From Scenedesmus sp. ARA3 (Eukaryota; Chlorophyta; Chlorophyceae; Sphaeropleales; Scenedesmaceae): a stretch of 64,000 bases of DNA. The DNA is taken from NCBI GenBank assembly GCA_004335835.1, contig RWJK01001070.1:2797-66796 (forward strand), given 5' to 3'. The notes under the pieces were generated by a model that saw only the letters and a program-made list of their open reading frames with translations, was not told the origin of the DNA and made no database searches. A program made the translations under genes and the position numbers. Each line of letters opens with the position of its first letter. The first letter of the stretch is position 1. Of the stretch, positions 1 to 64,000 are shown one piece after another.

Positions 1-213
1 TGCCTCAGGATCTAGCCGCACCATCACCCCAGCCAGCCACCAACACCTGCTGCTGCTGCTGCTATTTCTGCTGCTGCTGCTGCTCTCAGCTGCGTGGTCT
101 CACGCTGATGGATGCTTCAGGCTCCATCCCCACCATCACCCCAGCCAGTGACCCACACCTGCTGCTGCTGCCGCCGCCGCCGCATCTGCTGCTGCTACTG
201 TTCTGGTGTGCAG
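1..213 (+). repeat. Two upstream copies of the 5' edge of exon 214-591
   Basis: Segments at about 1-55 and 82-170 repeat the exon start (CTGATGGATGCTTCAGG... ending in CCAGCCAGTGACCCACACCT), separated by CTG/CCG-rich tracts. Only the third copy, from 214, runs on into the conserved FAD-domain sequence. Confidence 0.8.
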
Positions 214-904
214 CTGCGCGGGCTTACCCTGATGGATGCTTCAGGATCTATCCGCAGCATCACCCCAAGCAGTGACCCACACCTCTGGAGGGCCGCTTCA
301 GTCTCAGCCGGCCGGCTGGGCATCATTCTGGATGTGACAATCTCCATCGTCAAAAACACGGCAGTGCGCCGCAGCAAGGAGGATATCAGCACCGAGGAGT
401 TTGTCACATCGCTGCAGAGGCTGCAGGAAGATTACAAGGCAGCAGCGGGGCCTGCTGTTGCAGCAAGCTCCGGAGCAGCAAACCAGGATGGTGGCAATGC
501 TACTGCTGCTGCTGCTGGCGGGCTGGGCAGTATCAGTCCACTGGCGAGCTACGCTGTCTGGCAGGCCGTCAAGTCGTTCGATGAAGTGCAGGTGGGAGTG
601 CATGCTGCTGTAGATTTACAGCTGCATGCGCTGCTGAACCTTGGAATGCCTGCTGTCAGTTGCTGATATTGGCGGAGCAGGTGCAGCTACATGCGCCAAA
701 ACTTCTGCAGGCAGCTTCTTCAGTGACGGTCAACTCTACTGTCACTATCAGAACAGCGCGCAACGCCCAACCGTGCGGCAGCCAGGGGCTATGCAATCCA
801 GCTTCTGCACGTACATGTGATTCCAGCCTACCACAGCACGCCTGCACAGTGCACCACAGCCTATCAAGGTGAACAGCAGCTTAGCCGCATGTAACGTTCT
901 GCTC

Positions 905-939
<35 letters not shown>

Positions 940-3900
940 AGCTGTTCTGGTTCATCCCCAGCCGCATGCTGTGGAGGGTCACCTTTGAGCGGCTCACTGA
1001 CGGCCTCAGCGATGAGGAAGCAGCCAAGGTGAGGCTGCCATGCCACATGACACGTGAAGTAACGCGTGCCTGAGCAGTATGTTTGAGTAAGTGAGTGTGA
1101 TTCAGGTGGAGAAGGAGGACCTTTGAGCGACTCACTGATGGCCTCAGCGATCGGGAGGCCGCCAAGGTGCGTGTGGCTGAGGGTCACCTGTTGGGTGTGT
1201 CTTTGGGTTTGTCAGTGCGTTAAAGGTCACCGGTGAGCGCCTCATGGATGGCCTCAGCGACGAGGAGGCAGCCAAGGTGAGGCTGCGTGTGACTGTGACT
1301 GTGTGGGTGTGTTGGGGCATGAATGGTGGGTGTTTACTCACTGATGGCCTCATCAATGAGGAAGCTGCCAAGGTGTGTGGGGCTGAGGGTCACCTGTTGA
1401 GTGTGTTTGTGAGTTTGTCAGTGTCTTGAGGGTCACCTGTTGAGTGTGTTTGTGAGTTTGTCAGTGTCTTGAGGGTCACCTGTTGAGTGTGTTTGTGAGT
1501 TTGTCAGTGTCTTGAGGGTCACCTGTTGAGTGTGTTTGTGAGTTTGTCAGTGTCTTGAGGGTCACCTGTTGAGTGTGTTTGTGAGTTTGTCAGTGTCTTG
1601 AGGGTCACCTGTTGAGTGTGTTTGTGAGTTTGTCAGTGTCTTGAGGGTCACCTTTGAGCGCCTCACTGACGGCCTCAGCGATGAGGAGGCTGCCAAGGTG
1701 AGCCTGCGTGTGTGTCTTAGCATTAGCGTGACTTTGTGAAAATGGTTGTGCAGGGCAGAAAGGAACTGGTGATGGTGTTGTTGCTGGGGCATGTTGGGTG
1801 ACATGATGGAGGGGGCGCCGAGGTGGGCTGTTATGGTGTCACATTGGCGCGGTGTTGTTAATCGTTGTTGCATGCTGTGGAGGGTCACCTTTGAGCGCCT
1901 CACTGATGGCCTCAGCAACGAGGAAGCAGCCAAGGTGAGGCTGCGTGTGTTATGTGTGCATGTGCGTTATTGTAAGTGAGTGTGTGATTGCAGTTGGGGC
2001 AGGGAAGGAGCAGTGGTGATGGTGTTGTTGCTGGGGCCTTTTTGGTGACAACGTGTCGCATAGTGGTGCTGAGTTTTGTTGCTGTGGCTTGGAGCCGAGA
2101 TGCTGTCGCTGGCCCAAGTAGTGCTGAGACATTCTGGAATCAACCGGAAGCAAGAATCCGTGCAACAGTGTGTGCAGCATCTTGGAGCATTGCTCAACGC
2201 TGCCGCTTGATTGTATGTGCTGTGCAGGTGATGGCGGCAGACGGTCCATCCAACGGCCTACCTGAGGGAGCGCATGCACAGATGAAAGTCAACGCTGTCG
2301 GCACAGGTGGGCAGCAGTTCCTTGGCCGAACACTACTGCGCATGTGACCTGTAGCCGATTGTTGCAATAGAGGCCAGCAAGCCAGACACAGCTGATTTCT
2401 TCTTCAGCCTGAGGCGGACATGCTGTTGCTTTCAAGCGGTGCAAGTCTCTTGAAGCGCCAGGTTTTGTGTGTTACAAAGGGAAGGTGCAATCTGGTGTGG
2501 TGCCTGCACTCCATGATGGCACCAACGGCATTGCACAATAGATTGGCTCTAGGTGCGAAGGTCCAGAGCCGAAAGGGAATCAGCCCCCGATAAGGACTGG
2601 TTCGTGAAATGCACGGCTTGTTCAACTGCATTCGCTGCCTCGATGTCACCCCTGCAGGCATCGGCATTGATATGGCACCCACCTATTGGTCTCCAATAAG
2701 CAATGACAGTTGTGTGCCCCTCGCTTATTGAATGTTGCAGGCATCGGCATTGATGTGGCCCCCACCTACTGGTCTGACCAATACCGGCTGTACCTCTCAA
2801 TCAACGTGGTGCCTGGAGTCTACCCGGCAAGGGAGTGAGTGCTGCTGCAATGTCACATTGCAGTGTGCGGAATGGCTGTGTCTCACTTGCGCAATGAGCA
2901 GCCCTTTGGTGTCTGCCAATCAAGACATGCATTTGTTTTACGATCAAAAGTGTATCACGTCTGCGTGCCTGCCAAAAACAGCTGCATCACAACGACCAGC
3001 ACTACAGCAGCTGTACATGCCGCAGCCTGCAGCGCAGCAGTCACAGTGCGTAAGCTGCTGCAGGCACTAACATCTGAAATGACTCTGTTCTCCACGTCCG
3101 CAGGTCGTACGTGTCGATCAGTGAGATGGAAAACAAGTTGTACGCAGCATGGAACAGCTACGATCAATATGAGGTAAGTGTCTTATAAGGCCTGCTTGGG
3201 CATCAATGTATGAAGCCAATGCACAGCCTGTACAGTTGCTATGCATCTGATGCCTGATACAGCTGCAACCAAGTCCAGGTATGCCATTGTCCAGTGGTTG
3301 CAACTGCATGGCACATCCCCAGTTTCTGTTTCACACAATCTTGACCCCAACAGAATGCCGTCACGTGTGTAACATTTCCACTCTCCACACTGTGCGCTGC
3401 CGCACGCTCGCCGCAATGCCTGCACAGGTGGCTGTGCCGCTGTCTAAGGCTGGCGACTGCCTGGGGGCAGTGACCAAGGAGCTGTACGGGCCTGCCCAGC
3501 GCTGGAGGGGCTTCAGGTCACCCGCGCTGGTGCGCTTCATCAGAGGTGAGCGGGAGCATGGACCGCAATCACTCCCATGAGCAGAGCAGCGGCTGCAGCT
3601 GGTTGGGCTATTACTAGAGTGAGGAAACTGGAGGAGCTCACGCAATTGTGTTGCTGCCTGTCTTCTTGTGCCTCAACCCAGCACTCCTGCTTGTCATTGT
3701 CTGTGGGATTGGCAATGTCACCATCGCAGTTGAATCGGTGATGTTGTAACTCTGTTGTGCTGCTTTCTGTCGTCCTTGCGCCTGCAGCTGAGCACTCCTA
3801 CCTGTCACCTGCTGTTGGTGAGGCGGTGATGTACGTCAACATGGAGGACCACCTCAGCTACATCAATGGCAACACAAATGAGGACTTCCAGGTAAAAAGA

Positions 3901-6123
3901 TCGAGTGAGAAAGAGGGATGCTTAGAGTGATGACAGTGAGTGGCTGAGTGACTGATGTATGTGAACATGGAAGATCACCTGAGCTACATCAATGGCAAGA
4001 CAAACGAGGACTTCCAGGTGAGTGGGAGTGCAGCAAGAGAAAGAGACATAGCGTGTTTGTGTGAGTGTGATGTACGCCAACATGGAGGACCACCTGAGCT
4101 ATATCAACGGCAAGACAAACGAGGACTTCCAGGTAAACGATCGAGTGAGAAAGAGGGATGCTTAGAGTGATGACAGTGAGGGCTGAGTGACTGATGTATG
4201 TGAACATGGAAGATCACCTGAGCTACATCAATGGCAAGACAAACGAGGACTTCCAGGTTAGCAAGCAACGGTTTACCTGGCAGTTAAGAGCAGTGAACCC
4301 AGCTGAGCGCTTCCCGCAGCAGTGCGCTGGGTCAGTGTGCACATGGCGTTGCATGCATCCCTGGTGTCCACCGATGACTCTGCGCACTGCCAGCCGCATT
4401 GCTTAGGAGAGCACTCCACATGTTGCTTTCATGCCTGCATCAAGCAGCTGCAGTGCATGCGTGTGCACACATGCATGCACTGAAATTAATCACAGCCAGC
4501 TGCTACATTGTGTGTGCTGTGGTCTGCGCTTGCTTTGCAGGCAGTGCTGAGTGTGTTCAGGTCGGGGTGTGGCCCTGCAAGGCTGCAATTATACACGCAC
4601 TGAACTTACTAACAGCCAGCTGCTACTTCGTGTGTGCTGTGGCCTGCGCTTCCCCGGCAGGCGGTGCTGAGTGTGTTCAGGTTGCCTGTGTGTGGCCCAG
4701 TGCGGCTGCAATCATACACGCGCTGAACTTACTGACAGCCAGCTGCTACATTGTCTGCGCTGTTGCCTGCCCTTCCCCTGCAGGCGGTGCTGGGTGTGTT
4801 CAGGTTGCCTGTGTGTGGCCCAGCAAGGCTGCCATCATACACGCACTGAACTAACAGCCAGCTGCTGAACTGTGTGCGCTGTGGTCTGCCCTTCCCCTGC
4901 AGGCGGTTCTGAGTGTGTTCAGGTTGCCTGTGTGTGGCCCAGCAAGGCTGCCATCATACACGCACTGAACTAACAGCCAGCTGCTGAACTGTGTGCGCTG
5001 TGGTCTGCCCTTCCCCTGCAGGCGGTTCTGCGTGTGTGCAGGCTGCCTGTGTGTGGGCCAGCGCGGCTGCATCCATACACGCACTGAACTTACTGACAGC
5101 CAGCTGCTGAACTGTGTGTGCTGTGGCTTGGGCTTCCTCTGCAGGCGGTGCTGAGTGTGTTCAGGCCGCCTGTGTGCGGGCCAGCGCAGCTGCAATCATG
5201 CTCGCGCCGAACTTTCTAATAGCCAGCTGCTACATTGTGTGCGCTGTGGCCTGCGCTTCCTCTGCAGGCGGTGCTGAGTGTGTTCAGGTCGCCTGTGTGA
5301 AGGCCAGCGCAGCTGCAATCATACACGCACTGAACTCATTAACAGCTAGCTGCTGCATTGTTTGCGCTTTTGCCTGCGCTTCCCCTGCAGGCGGTGCTGC
5401 GTGTGTTCAGGTCGCCTGTGTGTGGCCCAGCGCGGCTGCACTGGGGCAAGGCAGGCTGGCCGCAGCATGCACAGTGCTTCGACGGCGCTGCAGAATACCC
5501 TAAGACCTGGTGTGACTTCGGGTGAGACGTTTGACCGGATGTTGACCAGATGTTGACTGGACGTTGACTGGGTCAACAGAGCATATGTGATCAGACAGCA
5601 GCAGCGCAACATTGTTCCTGACTATGGGCTTCTGTCCAACAAACAGCAAGAAGCCTACTGGTGTTTTCAGCGATTGTTGGCTGCTTGTCTCGTCACTGGT
5701 ACTGGATCATGTGCCTGCAAAGCTTCAGAAACAGCATAACACCGCACCTCTGGCTGCCTGGCTGCCTGGCTGTGTTCCCCTTGCAGGTGTGCTGTGCATC
5801 AGCTGGACCCCACCGGCAAGTTCTCTGCTGAGGCTGACCAAGACATCTGGCAATGAAATTCTCAAAAGCATCAGCCAGATCCTAGCTAGATCTTGACAAT
5901 CCACCTCTGCTGTCGGCTGTGTGCCGCTTGCAGGTGTGCTGTTCACCAGCTGGACCCCACCGGCAAGTTTTCTGCTGAGGCTGACAGGGACATCTGGCAG
6001 TGGAGCGCAACAGACAGCAGCACAGGGCAGCGCGTGGCAGACGCTGGCAGCTGCTGCAGCAGCAGCGGCTTCGACCATGCCCGCTGCAAGTGTGCGTCGC
6101 GCACAGATTGCTCGAAGGAGTAG
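1..6123 (+). CDS. FAD-linked aldonolactone oxidase-like protein (3' part, 5' end outside window)
   Basis: Inferred exons: 214-591, 942-1028, 2228-2306, 2741-2834, 3104-3173, 3428-3545, 3788-3891, 5391-5521 and 5934-6123 (stop TAG). All phases close, giving 416 residues in the window. Exon 1 holds the end of an FAD-binding PCMH-type fold (GLTLMDASGS, then WRAASVSAGRLGIILDVTIS). Exon 2 gives LFWFIPSRMLWRVTFERL. The C-terminal exons give ARLHWGKAGWPQ, FDGAAEYPKTWCDFG and CAVHQLDPTGKF, which are hallmarks of the C-terminal domain of L-gulono-1,4-lactone / D-arabinono-lactone oxidase relatives. The expected reaction is flavin-dependent oxidation of an aldonolactone or sugar; the substrate cannot be told. 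The tail is Cys-rich (KCASRTDCSKE), suggesting a secreted or disulphide-bonded end. The N-terminal FAD-binding half lies left of the window. The introns are filled with copies of exon edges (listed separately). Confidence 0.8.
1105..1934 (+). repeat. Five downstream copies of the 3' edge of exon 942-1028 with their 5' splice sites
   Basis: The segment coding TFERLTDGLSDEEAAK, followed by GTGNG, recurs ending at about 1166, 1276, 1371, 1697 and 1934. Codons vary (e.g. INEEAAK, SNEEAAK) but the AAG|GT donor is kept each time. None of the five has a convincing acceptor directly in front, so they look like partial exon copies inside the intron rather than alternative exons. Confidence 0.85.
1385..1642. 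repeat. 43-bp minisatellite, six copies
   Basis: Units begin at 1385, 1428, 1471, 1514, 1557 and 1600, exactly 43 bp apart, and are near identical. Each starts GAGGGTCACCT, the same bases as the start of the exon-edge copy at 1643. The satellite therefore seems to have grown out of an exon-edge copy plus flanking intron. Confidence 0.95.
2654..2690 (+). repeat. Upstream copy of the 5' edge of exon 2741-2834
   Basis: A CTGCAG acceptor followed by the start GCATCGGCATTGATATGGCA matches the real exon start GCATCGGCATTGATGTGGCC about 85 bp later, then diverges at an in-frame TAA. Confidence 0.8.
3952..4256 (+). repeat. Three downstream copies of the 3' edge of exon 3788-3891
   Basis: The segment coding YVNMEDHLSYINGKTNEDFQ plus its GT donor recurs ending at 4017, 4132 and 4256. 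Flanking intron is copied too: sequence after 3891 recurs after 4132, a higher-order period of 241 bp. Reading on through the first donor meets an in-frame TGA within about 40 bases. Confidence 0.9.
4541..5390 (+). repeat. Tandem array of seven copies of the 3' splice site and 5' edge of exon 5391-5521
   Basis: CAG|GCGGTGCTG-type junctions occur at 4541, 4661, 4784, 4903, 5022, 5145 and 5268 before the real one at 5391 (spacing 119-123 bp). Each unit carries a polypyrimidine tract, an AG and about 45 exonic bases, and then drops back into intron. Translating from the 4541 or 5268 site in the gene's frame gives early stops. Confidence 0.92.
5785..5850 (+). repeat. Upstream copy of the 5' edge of terminal exon 5934-6123
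   Basis: TTGCAG|GTGTGCTGTGCATCAGCTGG matches the real junction at 5934 and reads CAVHQLDPTGKFSAEAD in another frame context. It then diverges. Confidence 0.85.
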
Positions 6124-36399: not shown

Positions 36400-36430
<31 letters not shown>

Positions 36431-38786: not shown

Positions 38787-38817
<31 letters not shown>

Positions 38818-39384: not shown

Positions 39385-39434
<50 letters not shown>

Positions 39435-41894: not shown

Positions 41895-41928
<34 letters not shown>

Positions 41929-44117: not shown

Positions 44118-44148
<31 letters not shown>

Positions 44149-45678: not shown

Positions 45679-45711
<33 letters not shown>

Positions 45712-47656: not shown

Positions 47657-47698
<42 letters not shown>

Positions 47699-47780
47699 CA
47701 AGCAGCAAGAGTAGCAGTAGGAGTAGCGTCAGCTCTGTGTTGTTGCTCAGGTCAACGTCCTCCAAGCTGTACGACAGCCT

Positions 47781-47813
<33 letters not shown>

Positions 47814-48563: not shown

Positions 48564-48594
<31 letters not shown>

Positions 48595-50353: not shown

Positions 50354-50400
<47 letters not shown>

Positions 50401-51563: not shown

Positions 51564-51598
<35 letters not shown>

Positions 51599-52072
51599 GG
51601 ATGCAATGTGCACTTTGAGTACGCATCATATCCCATTGTGCTTGTGATGTGTGACCTGCAACTCTTTATGCTGTGGAGGCCACCTTCCCAATGCCAATGA
51701 GTGACAGTAGATGCATAACCGCACATAATGCTAGCCCTGCCAGCCAGACTGCTACTCACATCGGCAGGTCAATCGCCTTGATGCCATGCACAGCGCTGCA
51801 GTCTCCCTTTGCCACATCCGCTGCCTGGCAGCAGGTGATACCCCACCACCGGCAATAGGCAGGTGATCCTGCTGCTGCTACAGGTGTCACAAGCTTGCTG
51901 CAAGGCGTGCTCTTCACACGCTGCCATCCATACTCCTTGTCCCATGGGTCTGACACGTTATTTGTTACTTTATAGAAAGTGGCAAGCGCCTCACACAAGT
52001 ACAGCTGGCAGCTGCTGCCGCAGACACCGTTGGATACTCCAGGGCATGACTGTGGCAGGGGTGACCTGCTGC

Positions 52073-52105
<33 letters not shown>

Positions 52106-52217
52106 CGCCCGTAGCTCCGAGCGCTGAAGGAGCAGCTGCGACTGTGTTCGAGGACTGAACCGCGAACAGCAGGCACAAAGCTGCGAGCCACAGCAAGCAG
52201 CAGTTCCTGCTGCTCAT
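35990..52217 (-). CDS. LRR-receptor class III nucleotide cyclase, tandem C1/C2 (single-pass membrane protein)
   Basis: Nineteen phase-consistent minus-strand exons: 51760-52217, 51162-51322, 50668-50961, 50227-50351, 49623-49763, 48261-48421, 47524-47654, 46614-46804, 45878-46048, 44986-45258, 44029-44106, 43314-43412, 41447-42623, 40910-40951, 40014-40209, 39056-39783, 38492-38784, 37754-37987 and 35990-37264; 2075 residues. Signal peptide (CCLLWLAALCLLFAV) and LRR N-cap (YCRWWGITCC), then plant-type LRRs to about 490 (LTVLNLEANNLAGSIPEQYS; LEHLDISGNALTG; LAQLDASNNNFVGTIP). A Cys-rich juxtamembrane region precedes the span at 639-662 (AVILGTVFGVAFVLAGLFAW). C1 has VVTDVKDFTEL (Asp700) and LDQEGDSWCIAF (Asp743), but GVPLVLNIQELL replaces the Asn/Arg motif. 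C2 has VTIVFASVADADV (Ser1504 at the first Asp site) and YGHSVNCAARY (Asn1637, Arg1641). A low-complexity insert of roughly 370 residues (exon 13) splits C1. cAMP versus cGMP cannot be settled. There is no kinase domain. Confidence 0.86.
37567..38216 (-). repeat. Copies of both edges of cyclase exon 37754-37987
   Basis: A 3'-edge copy (GHSVNCAARYMDAAA codons plus donor) lies at about 37567-37680, downstream on the sense strand. A 5'-edge copy (EALLYADWPVAALSFPGF-like plus CTGCAG acceptor) lies at about 38148-38216. Confidence 0.85.
39826..39883 (-). repeat. Upstream copy of the 5' edge of cyclase exon 39056-39783
   Basis: The start (PSAASFAGCFNFRDVSHDND codons with CTGCAG acceptor) repeats the real exon start PSPASFAGSFDFRDVSHDND about 100 bp away. 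Confidence 0.88.
40266..40822 (-). repeat. Tandem array of five copies of the 3' splice site and 5' edge of cyclase exon 40014-40209
   Basis: Exon starts (AG|AGCTGCTGAGTGACGTGGCC family, coding ELLSDVANGGQILLDEPTFS) end at 40327, 40451, 40582, 40704 and 40820, with the real one at 40209; spacing is 116-131 bp. All keep the CTGCAG acceptor. The farthest copy is the most diverged. Confidence 0.92.
40988..41315 (-). repeat. Two downstream copies of the 3' edge of cyclase exon 41447-42623
   Basis: The bases coding VVVRIGVATGPLTAGSDVAS and CAVKDRAK recur at about 41222-41315 and 40988-41083, each followed by a GT donor. They are near identical at the nucleotide level. Confidence 0.92.
42695..43026 (-). 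repeat. Three upstream copies of the 5' edge of cyclase exon 41447-42623
   Basis: VQQAFAQLKAWGIRP codons with their acceptor recur at 42695-42740, 42805-42863 and 42935-43026. The last extends through GEQLPPELQQ. Confidence 0.9.
43662..43945 (-). repeat. Three downstream copies of the 3' edge of cyclase exon 44029-44106
   Basis: The donor and the codons of SHNSILRK (plus-strand CTCACCTTGCGCAGGATGCT family) recur at about 43662-43692, 43826-43857 and 43918-43945, increasingly diverged. Confidence 0.78.
44502..44935 (-). repeat. Two large downstream copies of the transmembrane exon 44986-45258
   Basis: A copy at about 44502-44712 preserves the whole span and cytoplasmic linker (LQAVILGNVFGVAFVLAGLF, then RPRWLRERQQQAKRLKG and ASVSIVVTDVKV) with a donor. 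A second copy at about 44750-44935 has lost part of the span. Shorter traces of the last bases occur at about 44297, 44386 and 44498. Confidence 0.9.
45381..45430 (-). repeat. Upstream copy of the 5' edge of cyclase exon 44986-45258
   Basis: Codons for GYEPSWDANRTTLTC recur with an acceptor-like CGCAG in front. Confidence 0.85.
46193..46288 (-). repeat. Upstream copy of the 5' edge of cyclase exon 45878-46048
   Basis: Codons VILRREPDNAQEACAATSAV and GLGDQAGLLPDI repeat the exon start, about 95 bases nearly unchanged, with the CAG acceptor. Confidence 0.9.
46914..47202 (-). repeat. Three upstream copies of the 5' edge of cyclase exon 46614-46804
   Basis: Codons GIIRPYNVTTNSSCTD recur at about 46914-46964, 47046-47078 and 47146-47202. 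The first two keep the CTTGCAG/CCTGCAG acceptor and the third has lost it. Confidence 0.86.
47655..47700. repeat. CAG/CTG microsatellite at a cyclase acceptor
   Basis: About 14 triplets, CTG on the sense strand, directly before the acceptor of exon 47524-47654. Confidence 0.9.
47727..47776 (-). repeat. Upstream copy of the 5' edge of cyclase exon 47524-47654
   Basis: LSYSLEDVDLSNNTEL codons follow a (CTG)nCAG acceptor, mirroring the real junction at 47654. Short copies of the other exon end (SMSCAG plus GT) sit at about 47267-47290 and 47410-47433. Confidence 0.86.
48027..48118 (-). repeat. Downstream copy of the 3' edge of LRR exon 48261-48421
   Basis: Codons LSGDLYYLPALAQLDASNNN and FVGTIPAAIG with the GTGAGT donor recur 230 bp downstream on the sense strand. 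The copy encodes a complete LRR segment. Confidence 0.9.
48484..48682 (-). repeat. Two upstream copies of the 5' edge of LRR exon 48261-48421
   Basis: LPTVITLLSSLQSLDIA codons recur at about 48484-48535 and, diverged (LSPMITLLSSLQSLNI), at 48640-48682. A GGCA tetranucleotide run lies between them at 48563-48593. Confidence 0.88.
48753..49530 (-). repeat. Tandem array of six copies of the 3' edge of LRR exon 49623-49763
   Basis: Codons ALALYARNLEHLDISGNALTG with CAG|GTGTGT recur from about 49456, 49289, 49126, 48997, 48877 and 48753 (real at 49623). Spacing is 167, 167, 163, 129, 120 and 124 bp. The two units nearest the exon share intron sequence rich in CATG-centred palindromes (ATGACATGTCATGACATGTG). 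Distal units are more diverged. Confidence 0.92.
50072..50145 (-). repeat. Downstream copy of the 3' edge of LRR exon 50227-50351
   Basis: VVERCRKLMQLNLASNALIG codons with a GTAAGG donor recur about 150 bp beyond the real donor. An acceptor-like CACAG precedes it, but the phase does not fit exon inclusion. Confidence 0.86.
50352..50399. repeat. CAG/CTG microsatellite at a cyclase acceptor
   Basis: About 16 triplets, CTG on the sense strand, ending in the CAG acceptor of exon 50227-50351. Confidence 0.9.
50527..50568 (-). repeat. Downstream copy of the 3' edge of LRR exon 50668-50961
   Basis: The last exon bases (SGELPPTLCSG codons) with the GTGAGC-type donor are repeated 140 bp downstream. 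Confidence 0.85.
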
Positions 52218-53383
52218 GGCAGCTAGCAGCGGCTCTCCCGCGCAGGGATCGCCGTGGTTTTACTTAAATGTATGTTGCATATCGTTGACCTCAGCTTCAT
52301 CCAGCGAGCAGCAGTTTAGCGGCCCGGTGTGTTGGAAAATGCTGTTGAATGGGCGAAGGCGATTGACCGGTCTCCTTGCGAACAAGCTGAACCAACAAAC
52401 AGTTGAAAACACTGAATGGCTGCACAGTAAGCTGGGTGAAGCACACAAGTCGCTGCAGTTCTTGCCCGAGTTCAGTTAGGAGCCAGTGTGTGTGACAATG
52501 TCCGGCCCGCTTCAACATACAGCCGCATGTGCGCTGCGGAATGTGCATATTTGTTATTATGTATAAGTTATTTAACTGTCTAACAAGAACTTAGAGGAAG
52601 ACTCGCGATGGCCCGGACACCTAAATGTACGAAGTACTCGCAAGAACCACCCAGAGTGGAGTGAGGTCACAGCAGAGGCGGTGCAGCTTGGCTTCATCAA
52701 CTTCCACTGCTGCTCCTGTTAGCCCCTTACACCATCGAATCCCATGTCCCGTTGTAGTCTCAGTCACCATCATGGCATGACACTCACCACAGCTGGCAGT
52801 ATCACAAGCCCAGTGCTGTAGAGCACAAGTGCACGGCACGCAAGCATGTACTGTGTTGAGCTTCTTGCACACAAACTCACGGCGAGCTGCGAGCGCTGGC
52901 TCCAGTTCTGCCCCGCAGGCTGCACCATCTGCTGCAGCAGCTGCTGCACAATTTCCTGAGGCAACTCCTCTGCCAGCTCTACTGCAGCGAGATTGCTGCG
53001 CAGCTGCTGCGGGCTGGCTGCCCCGCTGAGGTATACTCACCTCAACTTCAAGTGTCGCCAGACTTAGAGCTCTACAGCAAGACAACACAGCACTTCCGGG
53101 CATGTGCTTTTTGAGGCTAGTTTCAAGCTAGCTGTGAGCATTGGCTCCAGTACTCCCCAGCAGGCTGCACCATCTGCTGCAGCAACTGCTGCGCCACTTC
53201 TCCTGGCAGCTCCTCTGCCAGCTCTACTGGCACAAGGCTGCTTCCCACGACAGTATCTCACTGCCCAGAATGCCGTGCTCCTTATTGCCACATGATATAC
53301 ACACCACAACTAGCACTACCGCCAGACTTGCAGCTCTGCGGCGCGGCCAGACTACACCACATCACTACCACGTGCTGTCCTGG
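52218..53383. other. Spacer between aldo/keto reductase stop and cyclase start
   Basis: It holds the presumed cyclase promoter (52218-52620, no named motif seen). It also holds two long diverged copies of the reductase's terminal coding segment at 52872-53025 and 53124-53225. Confidence 0.6.
52872..53225 (-). repeat. Two downstream copies of the reductase terminal exon's 3' part
   Basis: The stretch coding AASPQQLRSN...ELAEELPQEIVQQLLQQM and WSQRSQLA is repeated beyond the stop codon. The 52872-53025 copy is about 150 bases and still almost fully open; the 53124-53225 copy is shorter and more diverged. Confidence 0.88.
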
Positions 53384-56300
53384 CTAGTTCCAAGCCAGCT
53401 GCGAGCGCTGGCTCCAGTACTCCTCGGCAGGCTGCACCATCTGCTGCAGCAGCTGCTGCACAATCTCCTGCGGCAGCTCCTCTGCCAGCTCCACTGCAGC
53501 AAAGTTGCTGCGCAGCTGCTGCGGGCTGGCTGCGCCACTGAGCACCATGGGGCTGAATGGCTGCTGCAGCACACAGGCCAGCGCCAGCGCGTCTGCTGTA
53601 GTGTCGTACTGCAGGATTGAGAAGGGCAGCACAGAAAGAAGTGGTGTGAGCACCATGGGGTTGAGTAATTGCTGCAGCACACAGGCCAGCGCCAGTGCAT
53701 CTACTGTGGTGTCCTACTGCAGAATTGGGCGGCGTAGGCAGCACAAACAGGGCGTCCCAAAGGTGATGTACTATTGAGCATGGTGCACAGTGCTAGGTTT
53801 CTTTACACCGCCACAGGCGCCGCCTGCGGCAGGAAGCGTTCAGGCCAGGAACAGCTGGCAACACACGTGCTCCAGGCTGTACAGCGTTGCTTGCAGGATG
53901 GAGGTGTGCACGCCACACATGTACAAGCCTACTAGCCTGCAGAGCTGTGCGACTGTTCGGCGCCCCAACCTACAATGACGCAGCTAGGCTGACATAGGGG
54001 CTGCGTGCTGCTGCTGCTGCTGCTGCTGCTGCTGCGCACCTGCTGCGCCGTGTCCTGCAAGAGCACCAGCCGTGATGCGAATTTAGGGTCGCTGTTACGG
54101 GCAGTGAGCCGCCCATTGGCCATGGCCTCCTTGATGATGACTGACAGGCCTGCCTGGTGGGCGGCCAGCAGCGCAGGGCCTGCAGCAGCAGATGCAACAC
54201 ACGATTTGAGATGGTGCCAGGACCCACATGCGTCTGTTCTGAAAAAACCAACCACACAGAGGTTGGACAACATCAAGCTGCCTCCTGACCATGCGGCATT
54301 GCCTCCTTTGCACAGACTGACAGGCCTGCCTGGTGGGCGGCCAGCAGAGCAGGACCTGCGGCAGCAGGGTACAACACCACAGCCATAACATAAACGACTC
54401 AATGTGCTTATTCTTCAACATGCGCTGGCTGCACCGCTGCAGGTGTGTTGCTTGGTGTGTTCGTGATGCTATGCAAGTGCAACTCACGCCTGATCCTGAT
54501 CCTGGTGCAGGTGCCTTGCGCCGTCATTCTGTTCCTTATGCGCGTGCGCTGCATCAAACACTGCTGCCATCCAGCATTGGGTTGAAGGTGTTAACCATGC
54601 ATTACTGCATAACATCGTTCCTGTACACACCTGCGGACTGCTCCAGCAGGTTCCAGGTGGCCTGCACGCTGTCAAACAGCAGCTGACCGTCAGGAGCTTG
54701 CGCCTGCAGCGCCTGCTGAATGACCGCAGCCTGCTGCTCGCCTGCAGCAGCAAGTGGGTGGCGGCGCAGCAGCAGGGCGCAGCAAGAAGGCAGTCGTGCG
54801 GCAGTTATTGTGATGCAACAGTGACAAGTGAGCAGTCAGCGCCTGTTGGATGGCTGCAGCCTGTTGCTCGCCTGAGGCAGGCAGCGGCGGGAGAGTGAGC
54901 AGCAGGGCAAATTGACATGCTGGGTGGTGTGTCTGAGAATGCCGCTAGCAGGTGTACATTTGAGAGCATGCTTGAATATTTCAATGAAACTGTGATGCAC
55001 ACGCACCAGACACCGATAGGCCTAGCGCCCAGCCCCTCTCAGCCTTCAGCTGCGCCAGTGCTGCCAGCACCTCAGCATTGGCCAGCACGCCACTCTCTAG
55101 CGTGGCAGAGTGGATCTGGTACAGGTCTAAGAAGGGGCCTAGATGCTGGTCCGTCTGCAAAGCAAAGCAGTACAAAGAGGCAGAAGCATGTTACAGCATG
55201 CAGCAGTTGATGCGTGTGTGGTGGGGTGGATTTGGTACAGGTCTAGGAAGGGGCCTAAGTGCTGGTCTGTCTGCAAAACACATCAAGAATGCAAGCGCGT
55301 CTCAGCAGATAATGCTTGTATAACCGACTGAATCTGGTGCAGGACCGAGGTGATGGTCTGTCTGCGCAGGAGAGCAGCACAAAGAGGCAAACGCAAGTTA
55401 TGACGTGCAGCAGTGAAGGCTTGTGTTGCCAAGTGGATCCGGTACAAGTCAGCAGGGCAGGGCATCTCCAAAGAGGCACAGGCATGTTACGGCATGCAGC
55501 AGTGAATGCATGCGTTGCGGGGCGGATCTGGTGCAGGACCAGCAAGGGACTCAGGTGCTGATCTTGTTGGACAGGCAGGAACAACGCACAATAAGGCACG
55601 CAGCAAAGAGTGTTGTCAGACAGCATGGCATGACAGGGTTACATGACATGATTGCATGACAGAGTATCATGGCAGCATGCGGCTACCGGCGGCCGCTCAC
55701 CTCTGCAGCCTGAGTCAGCAGGTTGGCTGCTGTGTGCTCCTTCACCTCGTGGGGCTGGCCCTGCGTGTCCACTGCAGGGAGCAGCGGTAGCAGCAGCAGC
55801 AGCAGCAGCAGCAGGAGTGGCGGCGGCGGCAGCGGCAGCAGCAGCAACGTGACTACCACAGCAGCAGCACTGGTGACGTCATGGGGGTGCATTACGCCCT
55901 CTTGCCCGCTTCCTACTGCCAGGCACATCCCAAGGCATCCTGGCATCCACCAGCCAGTGACCATATCCAGCATGGTGTATGCAATTGAGACGCAGCTGAC
56001 GGCATCAGGATGTACTGACAGACCTTGAAGCACAAGCGGCACAGCTGCAGTTTCACAAACGCATCTATTCAAGCACCTTGCCAGCCGGCGGTGTGCACGT
56101 AGCCCCACTTGCTGCCCACCACCGCACAGGCGCGATAACGCATCTCGACATCGATGCCACCCACTTGCCCCTATCCTACTGCCAGGACATTCATCAACAT
56201 GCACAGGAATGCACCAGGCACCGGCCACATCTATGTGTAGCATACATGTTGCAGCACCAGCGACGCAGCCGCAACTGCACACAAACAGCATTATGGTACA

Positions 56301-57993
56301 CTGCACCTTGCCAGCCAGCGGTGTACACGTAGCCCCACTTGCTGCCCACCACCACCTCCTCAGGCCCAATGCCACGCGCTGCCAGCCAGCCCCCGAGGAA
56401 CTCCTCAGCACGCCCATAGCTCCTAGCAGCGTCAAAGTACCTGCATGCGTGCAGCAGACATTACGGCAAACACGACTCATGTCTCAAGGGAAGGAGTGCT
56501 GCTGCTGCTGCCAGCCAGCCCCCAAGGAACCAATCGGCACGCCCGAAACTCCTGGCGGCGTCAGTCAAAGTACCTGCATGCGTGCAGCAGATATCATGGC
56601 AAACACCACTCATGCCTCAAGGGAAGGAGTGCTGCTGCTGCTGCCAGCCAGCCCCCGAGGAACTCCTCAGCACGCCCGTAGCTCCTGACAGCATCAAAGT
56701 ACCTGCAGCGTGCAAGCGATTTTGCGAACGTTACACGATTTTTCCCGAAAGGGAATGCTGCTGCTGCTTCTTGAACTGACATGGTAACCGAACACTGGTG
56801 ATTGGCGTAGGGCATCTGCTGCAACGTTTATCAACGGTCAAACCTGGTCAAACATAACACCCCCCACCTGACGCCACAGGCCCAGGCCTCGTGCAGCACC
56901 TGCCAGCAGTGCTGGATGTCGCTCCCCTGGCCCACCTGCCCAAGCTGTCAGCATACTGTATTGCAGTCAAACCTGGCCAAACTTGGTCAAACCTGGTCAA
57001 ACCTGCCTCACCTGACGCCGCAGGCCCATGCCTCGTCCAGCACCTGCCAGCAGTGCTGCCTCATTGCCTCCACGTCAGCGCCGCCTGCCAGGTCAGCGCT
57101 GTGGCCCAGGTTGATGTAGCCGGGCCTGAGTGACATGGAAGAGGCAAACGAAGTGTCACGTGCGTGGTGAAGTCGTGTATTTATGGTGCACGCATAGTGT
57201 GAATGCACTTTGGTGTCTGCTGGGGCAGAGCTGCGGCCCAGGTTGATGTAGCCGGGCCTTGAAAGCACAACAATCGGCATTTTTTTAGTCAGTTGTGTCA
57301 CCTGCCGCTGCCGTCAAGTACATGCAGTAGTAGCTTGCACATTGTGAATGATTGTTTTGGGGCAAATTATGGGGCTGCCAGGTCAGCGCTGTGCCCCAGG
57401 TTGATGTGGCCAGGCCTCAGCGCGCATTGCAAAAGAGTTTGTACTGGAGTTGTACTATGAGTGCATAGCTTGTGCGCACTGAGAAGTCATTATGTATATG
57501 TCATGTGAATGTGATGGACGTAAGTTGCTTTGTGTTATCTTGATTGCGGGTTGAGGCGAAGCACATGCAGCGTTACAGCATGCGCAGCCAGTTGCTGTGG
57601 CTGCTGATTCCCCAGGCAGCTCCTGCTGGGGACGTATTCCCCGTACACAGGCAAGTCAGCAATGGGCACTGCAGCTGGCAAAACTGTGCGCATTCTAGGA
57701 GCGGCTGCAGCAGCTGCTGGCGGCTAGCTGCTGCATTTCCAGCCGCACCTGCCTAATGCTGCAAGGCCCAGCCCCAGGTGCGGCATGCACAGCGGGCCTT
57801 GGGCCTTGTGCAAGAACCTCAGCGCTGCTGCTGCTGCCCCTGACGTTGCAGCCTCTGGGGTGGCGGCTGCTGCTGCTGCTGCTGCGCTGGCTGGTCTAGT
57901 TGCTGCTGCTGCTGTTCGTCGCTGCTGCTGGCTTGCAGCGCAGCTTGCAGGCCCTGCAGGGGGACTCCTGCAGTAACGCAATGACAGCGTCAT
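53384..57993 (-). CDS. Aldo/keto reductase, probably plastid-targeted
   Basis: Eight exons on the minus strand: 57749-57993, 57012-57125, 56307-56440, 55701-55771, 55007-55154, 54631-54741, 54040-54179 and 53384-53608. All phases close, giving 395 residues. The first 60 residues are Ala/Ser/Arg-rich with few acids, like a green-algal transit peptide. The fold then opens with CMPHLGLGLAALGRPGYINL. The catalytic tetrad of the family is visible: Asp123 and Tyr128 in FDAARSYGRAEEFLG, Lys154 in VVVGSKWGYVYT and His203 in DLYQIHSATLESG. Later motifs GLSVSG, FDSVQATWNLLE and GLSVIIKEAMANGRLT also match. It should reduce an aldehyde or ketone with NAD(P)H; the substrate is unknown. The layout resembles plant and algal plastid reductases of the L-galactose-dehydrogenase/YajO-like branch. 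Confidence 0.92.
53647..53718 (-). repeat. Upstream copy of the 5' edge of reductase exon 53384-53608
   Basis: DALALACVLQQLLNPMVL codons preceded by a CTGCAG-type acceptor repeat the exon start 110 bp away. Confidence 0.88.
54310..54362 (-). repeat. Upstream copy of the 5' edge of reductase exon 54040-54179
   Basis: GPALLAAHQAGLSV codons with acceptor recur about 180 bp upstream on the sense strand. Confidence 0.87.
54837..54876 (-). repeat. Upstream copy of the 5' edge of reductase exon 54631-54741
   Basis: GEQQAAAIQQAL codons preceded by a CTCAG acceptor recur about 135 bp upstream. Confidence 0.82.
55206..55565 (-). repeat. Tandem array of four copies of the 5' edge of reductase exon 55007-55154
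   Basis: Codons of DQHLGPFLDLYQIHSAT recur at about 55206-55260, 55323-55360, 55425-55460 and 55515-55562, with spacing around 105-120 bp. Divergence increases away from the exon and some copies have lost the acceptor. Confidence 0.87.
56076..56702 (-). repeat. Copies of both edges of reductase exon 56307-56440
   Basis: Two 5'-edge copies (FDAVRSYGRAEEFLGGW codons with CTGCAGG/CATGCAG acceptor) lie at 56642-56702 and 56505-56577. One 3'-edge copy (SKWGYVHTAGWQ codons plus donor) lies at 56076-56128. Confidence 0.9.
56868..57420 (-). repeat. Copies of both edges of reductase exon 57012-57125
   Basis: A 3'-edge copy at about 56868-56935 repeats HCWQVLHEAWACGVR codons with the donor. 5'-edge copies at about 57223-57258 and 57374-57420 repeat RPGYINLGHSADLAG codons. 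Confidence 0.88.
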
Positions 57994-59377
57994 GCTTCAG
58001 AACGTCAGCATTTCAGTCAGCAGATCACAGTCGTTTGATCTATTGTGTTTTTAAAATTTTGGACTGGGCCCTCACACAAGTCGTGTCTGCTTCAAGCAGG
58101 ACAACTGGTGCAGCAGCAGCACAGCAGCAGGGTCCAGGCCCGTGCATCTTCACCTGCCGATGCCGACACCTGGGCTCCATATCGACGTGGTGTGTCGTGG
58201 TTGTTGAACCGGGTGTCTGCCAATGTGGCTGCCTTGCCCAAGCACGTTCATGTCGTGAGAGTGCAGGCCACCGGTTGATTGTGTCGCAGGAGGTGAAGCT
58301 GGCACGCAGACGATTGATCCTGATTTTGTATGGATTAGTTTCATATTTCTCGACAGCTGGCTGCGTGCACATCAGCACGCCAAGGCTGCGTGATTTATTG
58401 TGCCGGTTGTAACGGTTGCAATGACATGTTGCAGTCAGGCCTAGTTCCTTGCTGGAATTTCGGGAACGGTGGTGTGAAGGACCGTTGAGCACATGGAACG
58501 CCCCTTAAAACGCACACAAACGTTCCTGTCAAGTCAGCTACCAACTGTCAGAAAGCATTTGCTGTTGATTTGAAACTATTGATGGGCTCAGCAAGGGCCC
58601 GTTGACTCCCCTAACTCCCTGTCACACCCCTTCAAGGGTGACGGTTGTACTATGTGCGATGGTGGAGCCCATCAGGGTAATTCATAGACCAGATTGTTAC
58701 GCAAGCGTCGTTGGAAACCAGGGCAACAACATGCCATTGCCCTGGCCAGGGTGTGCCATGGCACAACACCAGCAAATGTTGATGTGCCTCAAACAAGGTG
58801 GTGGTGCACCACCTGATGGTAGCGGTGGTGAATGTGGTGCTGGCCGCACCCCTTTCAGGGGGTGCGACACCCAAAGCCCGGTTGCGGCCCGTAGGCAGTA
58901 GCATGACACAAAAGGACCAACAACTAGTGAGTACTCGTAGCGGACTGGCTCTGATTCTCTCCGCCTTCCCGTCAAACAAGCCTGGATGTTTATTCATGAA
59001 GGAGTCACACCCCTTTTCAACAAGAGCCATGCGGTGTTCACAAACCAAAGATGCATAGGCATGTTGCATACCCTGAGGGCCCAAGGCTCGGGATCACGGA
59101 CACCATGCCCGTTGCTCACCAGAGGCACGCCATGGCAAATGTTGGCTAGTCGAGTAGTATTGTTCGGCTGTATACCAACTCAAGTGCAAGACACGTCTGA
59201 GCATACATAACAGCCTAGACAAAGCATGCGCACATGCACCACACACAAGCATGTGGCATATATTGTCTATTGTATGCAAGAACACCACCGCAATGATGAC
59301 AAGCTGAGTGAACAGGTCAGAGATGTAGGCTAGATGTAGCTGCACCTATAGGTGCAGACGACCACCGCAACCTACAA

Positions 59378-61307: not shown

Positions 61308-62677
61308 CTATGTGGCAACCTGCTGCACTGCTGCCGTGTCAAGAGTCACAGCCACAGATGTCATGGACTGCTCCACGTATTCCGCTGATGTGCTCGGTGC
61401 CGGGGCGCTTGATATTCCAAACAGCGCCGCCCAATCCACACCACCCCCGCCCATCAATCCGAGGAAGTTGAAGGCATCAACACGTGGCCATTGCGTGGCG
61501 GAGACACTGCGAATGCCGACTGCTGCAGCACTGGCAGCTGCCGAGAAAGAACGCGCTGTTGGGTCGTACGTGACACTGCTTGTGGCAGAGCTCGTGTAGA
61601 CCTGCACAGATCCTGCAGCCTGCACCACATGGACAGCAGCAGCAGCATCGAACGCACACTTAGCACGCTGAACACCTGGCCAGGGTCGTACGTTACATGG
61701 GTCGTACGTCACACTGTTTGTGGCAGAGCACGTGCAACAGGTGCACGCGTACTACAGTGTTAGTAACAGTGTTAGTAACAGGTGCAGCGAAGGGCAGCTG
61801 CCTGCCAGCTCCACTCCATGCCGAAGTATGCTGCATCAAGCAGCTGCGGACGTGAAACCAACGAGGCCGCAACAGCCGACACATCCTGTGGTTGCCGCAG
61901 CAGCTGCACAAAGCAACCATGCACAGCTGCAGACCTACTGACTCGCATCGAGAAATGCTCACCTCTGTGCAGTTGATGACTTCTGTCACGAAGCTCAGCC
62001 GCAGGGATTCGAGTGCGGCTGCCTTGCCCTTTTCACCGTTGTACTTTGCAGCCAATGCATCACCCAAAGCTTTGCTGCAGGTAGGAGTCGCCAGTGTAAA
62101 CCTTGCATCTGTTCTCAGGCCGATTGGGAAGCTCGTGTTGGCGGCTGCGGGTTCGACAGCAATGGCAGCAACAGAAGCAGCAACAGAAGCAGCAACAGAA
62201 GCAGCAGCAGCAGCAGCAACGGCAGCAACGGCAGCAGAGTGAAGACCGTGTGGGTGCTGCGTGAGGCGTCCGATCATGCTTGCCGGGTGTTGATGTTGAG
62301 CAGCGGCTCTGCTGCATGTATCTTGTTGCATTATGCATATCCAGATGAGGGTGGAGCTTGCAGAGCTGCCCTGCAGGCAACATACAACGGCGATTCTATG
62401 CATAGTGAATGCATAAATGCGAGCCTTCAAGCAATGCTGGACAGGCTGTGGCGGGGGCATGGGCGCGCTAGTGACTGGCAACTCATCAGCAACATCAGCC
62501 CACCTATCGTCAAGTTCACACAGTCGGCCCTCATGGCGGCGCCTCGGATAAGCGAATACGTGCCATCAGGGCAAGCACGGCACTTGGCAAACTTGGATGA
62601 GCCCCCACGGGACCAGAAACCAAGGTTGCATATGTAACAGGAGAGGCCACCAAAGCCTGGCTTGCAGGCTGCGACCC

Positions 62678-62783: not shown

Positions 62784-62819
<36 letters not shown>

Positions 62820-63386
62820 CAGGAGCTTGCGTCGAAAAAAGCAACGTCAAAGGAAGTGGATGGCAGTCGCGATTTTGATGGTCATAAACAAAGCGTTATA
62901 GAATGATCACTTGAACTACCTGCATCAGCAACAGGCTGAAACGGCACCACATATCCTGCAACACAGCGCACAAGTTTATGCTGGTTCAAATGTCAACTGG
63001 CGAGTTTCTTGGCAGTTGAGCTTATACTACGCTGCATCTGCTGCCTAGTCATCAGAAAAGCGCACAGCTTACCGCTACAGCAGACCCTTTTGCTCTGCAG
63101 CTCCTGGGGAACCAAAGATACAGCAGCGCAGAGTTTCTAGGCCCCACGCTGCTTGACACTCAAGCCCATCCTGTGCTGCATTTACTGCCTATTCATCACC
63201 ACTCAAGCGCACAACTCACCGCCACAGCGGACCCTGTTGGCTCCCAGCGTTGTTGTGTTGCCGCTGCATGCGGTGCAGGTGGGCTTGGCGCTCAGCAGCC
63301 CCCCCGGGGAGGTGAAGCCTGCCTTGCACACCGTGCAGGCAGCGCCGTTGAACTCCCTGCCAGCAGGGCAGGCTGCACAGCAGAAA

Positions 63387-63427
<41 letters not shown>

Positions 63428-63507
63428 TCAGTCAGCAGTACACACCCTGCAGGCAATGCTTTGATGGTGCCTTTTGTGAGCTGCCTGCCAGCACGGCAGG
63501 CTGCACG

Positions 63508-63573
<66 letters not shown>

Positions 63574-63841
63574 TTAAGCCAACAGCAGCAGCAGCAGCAG
63601 CGTCAAGCCAGCAGCTCACAGCCTGCAGGCAGTACTGTTGGTGCCTGGCGTGAGCTCCCTGCCAGCAGGCCAGGCTGCACAGCAGCAGCAGCTGCAGCAG
63701 CAGCAGCAGCGGCAGCAGCGGCAGCAGCGGCAGCAGCAGCATAAGTCAACAACACACACCCTGTAGGCAGGGCTATTGGCACGTTGCGTGCACTCCTTGC
63801 CAGCAGGGCTGAACAGCAGCAGCCAGCAGCAGCAGCAGCAG

Positions 63842-63900
<59 letters not shown>

Positions 63901-64000
63901 TTGGCCAGCAGTAGATACAGTGCAGGAAGTGTTGTTGGTGCCTGGCGTGAGCTCCTTGCCAGCAGGGCAGGTTGCACAGCAGCAGCAACAGCAGCAGAAG
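61308..64000 (-). CDS. Secreted EPH-receptor-like Cys-rich repeat protein (3' part; 5' end beyond right edge)
   Basis: Minus-strand exons: 63220-63372, 62920-62955, 62504-62668, 61963-62144 and 61308-61601 (stop TAG). Phases close through all five. The first reads CPAGREFNGAACTVCKAGFT and CTACSGNTTTLGANRVRCG, the third CKPGFGGLSCYICNLGFWS and CRACPDGTYSLIRGA. This is the C-x2-CP-x-G-T rhythm of ephrin-receptor-like (GCC2/GCC3) repeats, common in large secreted proteins of green algae. The C-terminal part (ARFTLATPTCSKALGDALA, LSFVTEVINCTEVYTSSATS) is a distinct module I cannot name; DAFNFLGLMGGGGVDWAALF lies near the end. An extracellular or cell-wall location is inferred. Upstream exons lie outside the window. 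The region to the right is filled with copies of one exon start. Confidence 0.7.
61698..61742 (-). repeat. Upstream copy of the 5' edge of terminal exon 61308-61601
   Basis: SSATNSVTYDP-like codons with a preceding acceptor-like sequence repeat the exon start about 140 bp away. Confidence 0.8.
63449..63985 (-). repeat. Array of four exon-start copies upstream of exon 63220-63372
   Basis: CPAGKELTPGTNNTSC-type starts behind a GTGCAG or GTGCAAC junction end near 63510, 63674, 63815 and 63972, with the real exon at 63372 (spacing about 138-164 bp). They are separated by long CTG runs on the sense strand. They may derive from a real exon to the right of the window rather than from 63220-63372, because they match it only over about 30 bases. 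Confidence 0.75.
63511..63573. repeat. Long CAG/CTG microsatellite
   Basis: About 20 uninterrupted triplets (CAG on the plus strand), the longest pure tract I noted in the window. It is intronic for the minus-strand gene. Confidence 0.93.

Follow-up and report, generated by a model that had tools for sequence, protein, structure and literature searches.

Direct local copies of exon edges in a Scenedesmus genome differ from their exons mainly at synonymous sites

How do introns come to hold copies of the ends of their own neighbouring exons, and why do these copies lie where they do? We addressed this question in a stretch of 64,000 nucleotides from the green alga Scenedesmus sp. ARA3 (GenBank assembly GCA_004335835.1, contig RWJK01001070.1, positions 2,797 to 66,796 of the forward strand), hereafter the window, which is C755:2797-66796 in an 87.27-Mb assembly of 1567 contigs. 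A first-pass annotation made from the letters alone had reported direct copies of exon ends with attached splice sites at more than 30 exon edges in seven of eight genes, upstream of the exon for 5' edges and downstream for 3' edges, and had ascribed them to repeated local tandem duplication. We found that the copies differ from their exons mainly at synonymous sites, in excess of what a dead copy decaying within a single genome could show, and that similarity drops at the splice junction; both findings are new here. As a whole, the explanation that we slightly favour combines local duplication across coding boundaries with exchange between diverged haplotypes.

Exon-edge copies in the window and in other genes

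When the window was compared with itself by BLAST (triplet repeats masked, E 1e-3), 132 direct versus 2 inverted repeat pairs were obtained, and the reported direct, local copies with their splice sites were indeed present; 131 of the 132 direct pairs were spaced by less than 1 kb. Arm length reached at least 0.9 of the spacing in 20 of the 132, and some arrays are clean tandem units. Curation from these pairs by eye, which was not blind, assigned 88 copies to 44 affected coding boundaries (23 acceptor edges, 15 donor edges, 1 near-donor edge and 5 stop-codon ends; Table 1), in agreement with the earlier figure of more than 30. Left out of this set were the within-exon pairs 21335/21566, 23207/23312 and 39341/39449, a Cys-rich region (63434-63970), an array (35435-35720), an intergenic stretch (59435-59720) and a number of weaker pairs. 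The window pairs showed no clear enrichment of conserved donor-like motifs (9.1 vs 8.5 per kb), and pairs from random stretches of the assembly had fewer of them (2.5 per kb).

An edge test independent of the eye was carried out on two adjoining genes whose models match database proteins, encoding an LRR - transmembrane - nucleotide cyclase (18 exons) and an aldo-keto reductase (AKR; 9 exons), with 25 GT-AG introns between them. Each 90-nt exon-edge probe was compared with the adjoining intron and judged against 60 shuffled introns per edge. Copies on the expected side were detected at 26 of 50 edges (cyclase 18/34, AKR 8/16; acceptor 15/25, donor 11/25), as opposed to wrong-side copies at 5 of 46 and reverse-complement copies at none of 50. 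All five wrong-side matches came from 90-nt acceptor-edge probes of exons of 78-161 nt; by our reading, four are probes reaching the exon's own donor-edge copies, and the one at cyclase exon 2 is a true exception, an exon-internal piece of about 20 bp. The copies sit inside single introns of both models.

The placement rule of the first-pass annotation was upheld, although it needs no special mechanism, and these counts agree with a side rule that is geometric. Restriction to splice junctions held only in part, as the five stop-codon ends with copies obey the same geometry. The exact count of seven in eight genes was not reproduced, gene limits being incomplete. Not all genes are affected: copies were found at 0 of 12 splice edges of an enkurin gene and at 1 of 8 tested in an SMG7-like gene, whose exon 5 donor edge (two copies, F8) lay outside that test. 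Divergence rising with distance survived as a weak trend and not as a strong rule, the nearer copy having the higher similarity in 53 of 87 comparisons (p=0.053).

In the cyclase and AKR genes, 68 local direct pairs (E 1e-2, spacing within 1.5 kb) comprised 46 joining an exon edge to an intron, 21 joining intron to intron and 1 joining exon to exon. Both members overlapped edge copies in 18 of the 21 intron-intron pairs (overlap.41-1.00); by reading, two of the others represent a short, uncounted fourth copy of the F17b family and the third links simple repeats that lie in different introns. By this reading the 68 pairs include no intron-only duplication of comparable size, short-period intron repeats, which do exist, being left out of this count. 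By contrast, randomly placed duplications of 100-240 bp would be intron-only in 22-61% of cases, depending on the assumed original intron length. Part of this shortfall is detection bias, because intron-only duplications decay faster.

To see how far the copies extend, we surveyed random 10-kb stretches of the assembly (199 kb), which yielded 239 local direct versus 33 inverted pairs. Sixty-six of the 239 fell in a single stretch that overlaps the window; in the other 19 stretches, local direct repeats covered at most 2% of bases in 11 and at least 6% in 8. Codon phase was clearly biased in the stretch L026 and less so in L027. Because this survey was too mixed, edge copies being neither proven nor excluded there, conserved protein families were searched instead, with counts that are lower bounds since protein-level searches see long copies only.

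Chaperonin (PF00118) matches lay on 11 contigs, taken as 11 genes, and overlapping extra matches occurred in four. The 10 unambiguous extra matches all lay on the expected side, upstream of the exon at acceptor edges and downstream at donor edges; the ambiguous overlaps C1492:10629-10769, C1016:37784-37918 with 38381-38455, and C1184:7162-7305 with 6277-6444 were left uncounted, and the DNA of six stretches was inspected. HSP90 showed copies on one of three contigs, with three donor-edge copies, all downstream. No clear copy was found on seven contigs taken as adaptin genes. Four further adaptin-matching contigs (C1524, C449, C951 and C1417) were not taken as genes; overlapping matches lie within long open frames on the first two, and a long match at C367:28281-28994 contains five stops. 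The genome-wide claim therefore holds in a patchy form, for some chaperonin and HSP90 genes and with no clear case among the adaptins: the process is widespread but patchy.

Divergence between copies and exons

Read in the frame of their exons, the window copies showed 630 differences, distributed over codon positions 1, 2 and 3 as 145, 126 and 359, with 360 synonymous (S) and 259 nonsynonymous (N) changes. A null with a neutral copy, a constrained exon and the empirical non-coding spectrum predicted 260 S (z 8.1, although the copies of an edge are not independent), and stronger assumed mutation biases predicted 269, 324 and 344 (z 7.3, 2.9 and 1.3). In a spectrum-matched test, which assumes no spectrum, the rates of each class of change at nonsynonymous sites of the same copies were used to predict S. 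For a dead copy in one genome the ratio of observed to predicted S is at most 2, because constraint can act on only one of two copies within a genome. We obtained 3.79 for window splice edges (bootstrap 2.72-5.12), 3.32 (2.56-4.24) without the strongest family and 3.18 (2.18-5.34) for single-copy families, while stop edges gave 1.97 (0.71-3.46). At the chaperonin loci, which were selected for the copies seen in the protein search, the ratio was 6.87 (4.04-13.1; S 108, N 41; 15 edges, 28 copies). By family, 29 of 44 lay above the null (Wilcoxon p.0013), 28 of 39 at splice edges and 1 of 5 at stop codons. Among individual families, the three counted copies of F17b carry 49 synonymous versus 8 other changes, and the nearer F7 copy 6 versus 0.

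CpG hypermutability was rejected as the cause. C/G-to-T/A changes in window splice-edge copies were more frequent at S than at N sites both within CpG (.246 and.063) and elsewhere (.049 and.031), as they were at the chaperonins (CpG.253 and.030; other sites.024 and.013); the few stop-edge copies gave.136 and.059 at CpG and.047 and.046 at other sites. Synonymous CpG sites changed about 5 times (window) to about 10 times (chaperonin loci L029-L034) as often as other C/G sites; these rates are in line with the gene-body CpG methylation reported for Tetradesmus obliquus, as cited in PMC12633428. Gene conversion within one genome was rejected as a source of the silent excess by argument, one copy at a time being constrained. 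Gaps per substitution amounted to.067 in copied exon parts vs.149 in non-coding repeats; of the 42 gaps in aligned copies, 35 shift the reading frame, and stops occur in some copies.

Similarity also changed abruptly at the junction. Mean identity of the exon part was.89 and stayed high right up to the junction in the 88 of 107 copies used, the other 19 being skipped as their alignment stopped short of the edge or their flank was too short. On the intron side, ungapped identity was high on the splice signal and then dropped to.62 at 6-10 bases and about.5 beyond for acceptors, and to.46 and.3-.45 for donors. With gaps allowed, the 40-nt intron tail was.59 identical vs.39 after shuffling, and exon and tail identities were uncorrelated (rho.08, 88 copies). 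The tails are thus related and part of the duplicated unit, but usually far more diverged than the exon part, which is the appearance of orthologous genes from diverged lineages. F10a and one F25 copy, with tails as similar as the exon part, are plain young duplications.

Origin of the copies

The copies very probably arose by local, direct duplication across coding boundaries, with the side rule following from geometry and selection. Short stretches straddling a coding boundary, mostly 100-250 bp, would be duplicated in the same orientation, each retained event adding length to the intron or the 3' flank, and the copies would afterwards decay as intron sequence. The side rule would reflect geometry and purifying selection: only the copy attached to the remainder of the exon has to be preserved, so extra copies end up on the non-coding side whatever made them, and because the protein must survive, the last copy is used at an acceptor edge and the first at a donor edge.

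A further step is suggested by the silent excess, and we put it at slightly better than even that the duplications were made or reshuffled by recombination between diverged haplotypes. In one haploid lineage N cannot fall below half the S rate, and here it does; therefore both lineages were coding simultaneously, in different genomes or haplotypes, or both were translated. The lineage of a copy would then have spent part of its history as coding sequence in another genome or haplotype, and aborted strand-exchange repair or unequal exchange between diverged haplotypes would make or reshuffle the copies. As a rough estimate, taking twice the N value per site (.067) from the S value per site (.276) suggests a silent divergence of about.14 at copying. 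Exchange is plausible because a heterozygous strain is reported and a presumed allele pair is diverged: T. obliquus UTEX 3031 is described as diploid, extensively heterozygous and possibly a hybrid (Biondi et al. 2024, as cited in PMC12633428), and OEZ86_006000 and OEZ85_006309, presumably alleles, share 1625 identities over 1791 columns, with 86 gaps and about 80 substitutions (about 5% of ungapped residues). The F17b copies look by eye like mosaics of each other and the exon, which points to exchange. Three residues in copied codons vary between strains, and two copies match P0122, a T. obliquus record of the cyclase, over the local exon; the F11a copy, for example, codes Y as P0122 does, where the local cyclase exon 17 has C.

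Several observations weigh against this explanation. Just those three strain-variable sites fall in copied codons, with two matching the other strain, and the family-level significance is moderate. An extreme spectrum (transitions x6, GC>AT x5) brings the window excess down to z 1.3, and stop-edge copies have no S excess in the spectrum-matched test. Tail identity is higher, at.53-1.00 (mean.74), in the nine copies whose exon parts are at least 95% identical, a pattern that plain young duplications would also show. Many direct pairs are not clean tandem units, only 20 of 132 being long-armed, and a general process should be less patchy than the copy-free enkurin gene and seven adaptin-like contigs indicate.

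Ordinary local tandem duplication in one genome, whether through slippage, sister exchange or end-fill repair, with later neutral decay and with the silent excess an artefact of spectrum or curation, is the strongest competitor, though rather unlikely. It accounts for orientation, spacing and the side rule, for the stop-edge copies, which sit at neutral expectation (1.97 vs 2), for the neutral look of the young arrays F5 and F10a, and for the plain young duplications above; the extreme spectrum removes most of the excess that speaks against it. It does not predict matched ratios of 3.8 and 6.9 where 2 is the limit, nor S above N in both CpG and non-CpG sites, nor intron parts far more diverged than exon parts. 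The tandem duplication of the first-pass annotation is accordingly retained as local direct duplication across coding boundaries and fits poorly as a full account, because by our reading no intron-only family was found in the two genes, there is a synonymous excess and similarity falls sharply at the junction. If instead a collapsed, diverged diploid had been assembled by joining overlapping ends from two haplotypes, the exon-edge copies would be false. Synonymous divergence of this kind is expected between haplotypes, the assembly is fragmented enough to be a collapsed diploid, and a T. obliquus strain is reported, as cited in PMC12633428, to be a very heterozygous diploid; yet at least two copies occur at 20 of 44 edges, and 19 of these 20 hold at least three distinct versions including the exon, which argues against such an artefact since a diploid gives at most two. 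Copies also share their starts in 5 of 6 F25 copies and in all five chaperonin C1492 donor-edge copies (within 65-67), the window has no unresolved base (N), and the farther F28 copy, MVQPAGQNWSQRSQLA, stands word for word at the start of OEZ85_000871 on a 3.9-Mb contig; we consider this artefact improbable. Confirmation from a separate assembly is limited to this one F28 copy. In the F13 family, 3 of 5 copies end at exon position 65-67.

Translation would likewise keep both lineages constrained, if the copies served as alternative or cassette exon ends. Their splice sites are kept, their changes are mostly synonymous, and the T. obliquus record P0131 (OEZ85_006309) carries the 13-aa SLPVLGYLNLANN twice. 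The copies are partial, however, no acceptor is evident where the donor-edge copies begin (in the few arrays read), the database-predicted records P0001 (AKR) and P0122 (cyclase) leave no room for intron copies, and the frame-shifting gaps and stops do not suit coding sequence, so that translation is unlikely on the sequence and a functional role very doubtful. Introners or other transposable elements inserting at exon edges, which the first-pass annotation had already dismissed, have nothing in their favour beyond the intronic location and can be given almost no weight: 131 of 132 direct pairs lie within 1 kb, a single direct pair lies beyond it (E 1e-3; tested in the window only), no element family is common to different window genes at that threshold, and each copy matches its own exon.

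Returning to duplication with haplotype exchange, a more specific version is possible but tentative, namely that template switching at exon edges, between diverged haplotypes, is what lengthens T. obliquus introns. Exons would be the only homology among fast-changing introns, so that repair would begin in exons and be abandoned beyond the splice junction, and a piece of the exon edge of the other haplotype would stay behind. If this is true, each intron is a fossil record of the haplotypes that its gene encountered, and hybridisation could be read from intron length. Intron growth would be tied to recombination between diverged haplotypes, which phased genomes can test directly. Intron lengthening is poorly documented at the level of single events; gene structure here keeps many events per gene, chaperonin genes included. 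Edge copying may also bear on the long introns of T. obliquus, which average 462 bp; the corresponding means for three other Sphaeropleales are 230, 302 and 284 bp (PMC5966456, Table 1).

Features of the window and relation to known systems

The features are listed in Table 1. The spliced AKR model is identical to T. obliquus OEZ85_000872 over all 327 residues queried, and the window as a whole is assigned to T. obliquus. The cyclase model has no internal stop and differs from P0122 (2046 aa) at 27 of 2037 aligned residues. OEZ85_000871, which may come from the same strain as the window, shares 660 consecutive identical residues with it. The start of OEZ85_000871 (window 52880-52935, minus strand), where an AKR stop-end copy is joined to a cyclase exon, is likely a gene-prediction error caused by the copy, an example of how gene finders can pick up such copies. 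No AKR paralogue or second haplotype was shown, all 11 assembly matches (E 1e-3) lying inside the window, and the transmembrane exon of the cyclase had no relative in a viral-contig search. A Pfam scan was applied to selected translations: on the plus strand, two frames over 1-15.0 kb and all three over 17.4-27.4 kb; on the minus strand, all three over both 8.4-18.4 kb and 25.0-63.9 kb. It detected EST1, LRR and enkurin plus a weak aldo-keto match (E.006), and missed the cyclase and the AP2-like region. The latter, the gene of exon 20725-20847, looks AP2-like by eye and had no Pfam match. F10a is a young array, two of its copies being identical to the exon part.

Table 1. Genes and exon-edge copies, in window coordinates
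Feature	Description	Position	Strand	Remarks
Cyclase	LRR - transmembrane - nucleotide cyclase gene	35990..52217	-	18 exons, 17 GT-AG introns
AKR	Aldo-keto reductase gene	53384..58250	-	9 exons, 8 GT-AG introns; OEZ85_000872 match
F1	Two upstream copies, 5' edge of exon starting 214	1..151	+	Outer one cut by window start
F2	Five downstream copies, 3' edge of exon 942-1028	1111..1938	+	GT after each
F2 minisatellite	43-bp unit, 6.4 copies	1384-1658	+	Unit includes part of copied exon edge
F3	Upstream copy, 5' edge of exon starting 2741	2655..2698	+	
F4	Three downstream copies, 3' edge of exon ending 3891	3953..4257	+	Two identical
F5	Seven upstream copies, 5' edge of exon starting 5391	4538..5335	+	~120-bp units
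F6	Upstream copy, 5' edge of exon starting 5934	5780..5855	+	
F8	Two downstream copies, 3' edge of SMG7-like exon 13439-14414	13071..13415	-	Both GTGAGT
F7	Two upstream copies, 5' edge of SMG7-like exon starting 15640	15780..16046	-	
F39	Upstream copy, 5' edge of exon 20725-20847	20572..20660	+	
F40	Downstream copy, 3' edge of exon 20725-20847	20915..20970	+	
F41	Three copies of CDS stop-codon end	23990..24262	+	Real end 23974
F9	Copy of enkurin CDS stop end	25480..25560	-	Last exon 25628-25782
F10b	Copy of CDS stop end	30310..30400	-	Real exon 30458-30584
F10a	Four upstream copies, 5' edge of exon 30458-30584	30630..31000	-	100-bp copies
F42	Copy of cyclase CDS stop end	35835..35920	-	
F11b	Downstream copy, 3' edge of cyclase exon 17 (37754-37987)	37560..37700	-	
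F11a	Upstream copy, 5' edge of cyclase exon 17	38120..38222	-	
F12	Upstream copy, 5' edge of cyclase exon 15	39800..39866	-	
F13	Five upstream copies, 5' edge of cyclase exon 14 (starts 40209)	40262..40825	-	~122-bp units
F14	Two downstream copies, 3' edge of cyclase exon 13 (ends 41447)	40985..41315	-	
F15	Three upstream copies, 5' edge of cyclase exon 13 (starts 42623)	42680..43030	-	
F16	Two downstream copies, 3' edge of cyclase exon 11	43822..43970	-	
F17b	Three downstream copies, 3' edge of transmembrane exon 10 (44986-45258)	44289..44930	-	Plus one short, uncounted
F17a	Upstream copy, 5' edge of cyclase exon 10	45370..45428	-	
F18	Upstream copy, 5' edge of cyclase exon 9	within 46180..46460	-	
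F20	Downstream copy, 3' part of cyclase exon 8	within 46180..46460	-	Stops short of donor
F19	Three upstream copies, 5' edge of cyclase exon 8	46900..47190	-	
F21	Upstream copy, 5' edge of cyclase exon 7	47710..47778	-	
F23	Downstream copy, 3' edge of cyclase exon 6	48027..48120	-	10 synonymous, 2 other changes
F24	Two upstream copies, 5' edge of cyclase exon 6	48470..48690	-	
F25	Six downstream copies, 3' edge of cyclase exon 5 (49623-49763)	48740..49535	-	
F26	Downstream copy, 3' edge of cyclase exon 4	50070..50150	-	
F27	Downstream copy, 3' edge of cyclase exon 3	50520..50585	-	
F28	Two copies of AKR CDS stop end	52880..53240	-	Farther one also N-terminus of OEZ85_000871
F29	Upstream copy, 5' edge of AKR exon 9	53640..53727	-	
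F30	Upstream copy, 5' edge of AKR exon 8	54270..54377	-	
F31	Upstream copy, 5' edge of AKR exon 7	54790..54908	-	
F32	Four upstream copies, 5' part of AKR exon 6	55210..55570	-	Two reach edge, two truncated
F33	Downstream copy, 3' edge of AKR exon 4	56070..56135	-	
F34	Two upstream copies, 5' edge of AKR exon 4	56500..56714	-	
F35	Downstream copy, 3' edge of AKR exon 3	56860..56925	-	
F36	Two upstream copies, 5' edge of AKR exon 3	57200..57420	-	
F37	Upstream copy, 5' edge of exon starting 61601	61680..61745	-	
F38	Downstream copy, 3' edge of exon ending 63220	63070..63115	-	

Some repeats lie beside these features. The two inverted pairs of the window derive from palindromic CATGTCATATGACATG-like intron motifs at 49373-49567 and 50156-50183, which TTACATGT-rich sequence in the chaperonin stretch L031 resembles. 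Directly downstream of the cyclase stop-end copy lies a 37-bp and 50-bp tandem array (35435-35720), and the 43-bp minisatellite at 1384-1658 suggests that long copies may seed minisatellites. Repeated Cys-rich CPAGKELTPGT-like segments with CAG tracts between them at 63434-63970 (minus strand) may be repeat exons or copies. The peptide SLPVLGYLNLANN, duplicated in tandem in P0131 and single in the presumed allele P0130, may represent an edge copy turned coding.

Introner elements are dispersed, similar elements that expand introns in particular lineages; the copies described here share the lineage-specific intron expansion and differ in that each derives from the adjacent exon. False tandem duplication, in which assemblies of heterozygous genomes place diverged copies of one locus side by side, differs from the present case, where an edge has several versions and one copy is present in another record. 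No recognised description of multi-copy exon-edge duplications was found in the open-licence PMC papers searched, which is not proof of absence. CST-guided fill-in by Pol alpha-primase at DNA breaks makes small tandem duplications, local and head to tail, as a repair outcome (PMC8355091). Our copies are likewise local and direct, although the abstract names neither an association with exon edges nor haplotype divergence between copies. There is also a likeness to intron gain by tandem duplication across an intron-exon boundary, where, in published descriptions, splice signals are inherited from the parental edge as they are here; there a new intron arises, whereas here an existing intron grows, by up to seven copies per edge and at many edges.

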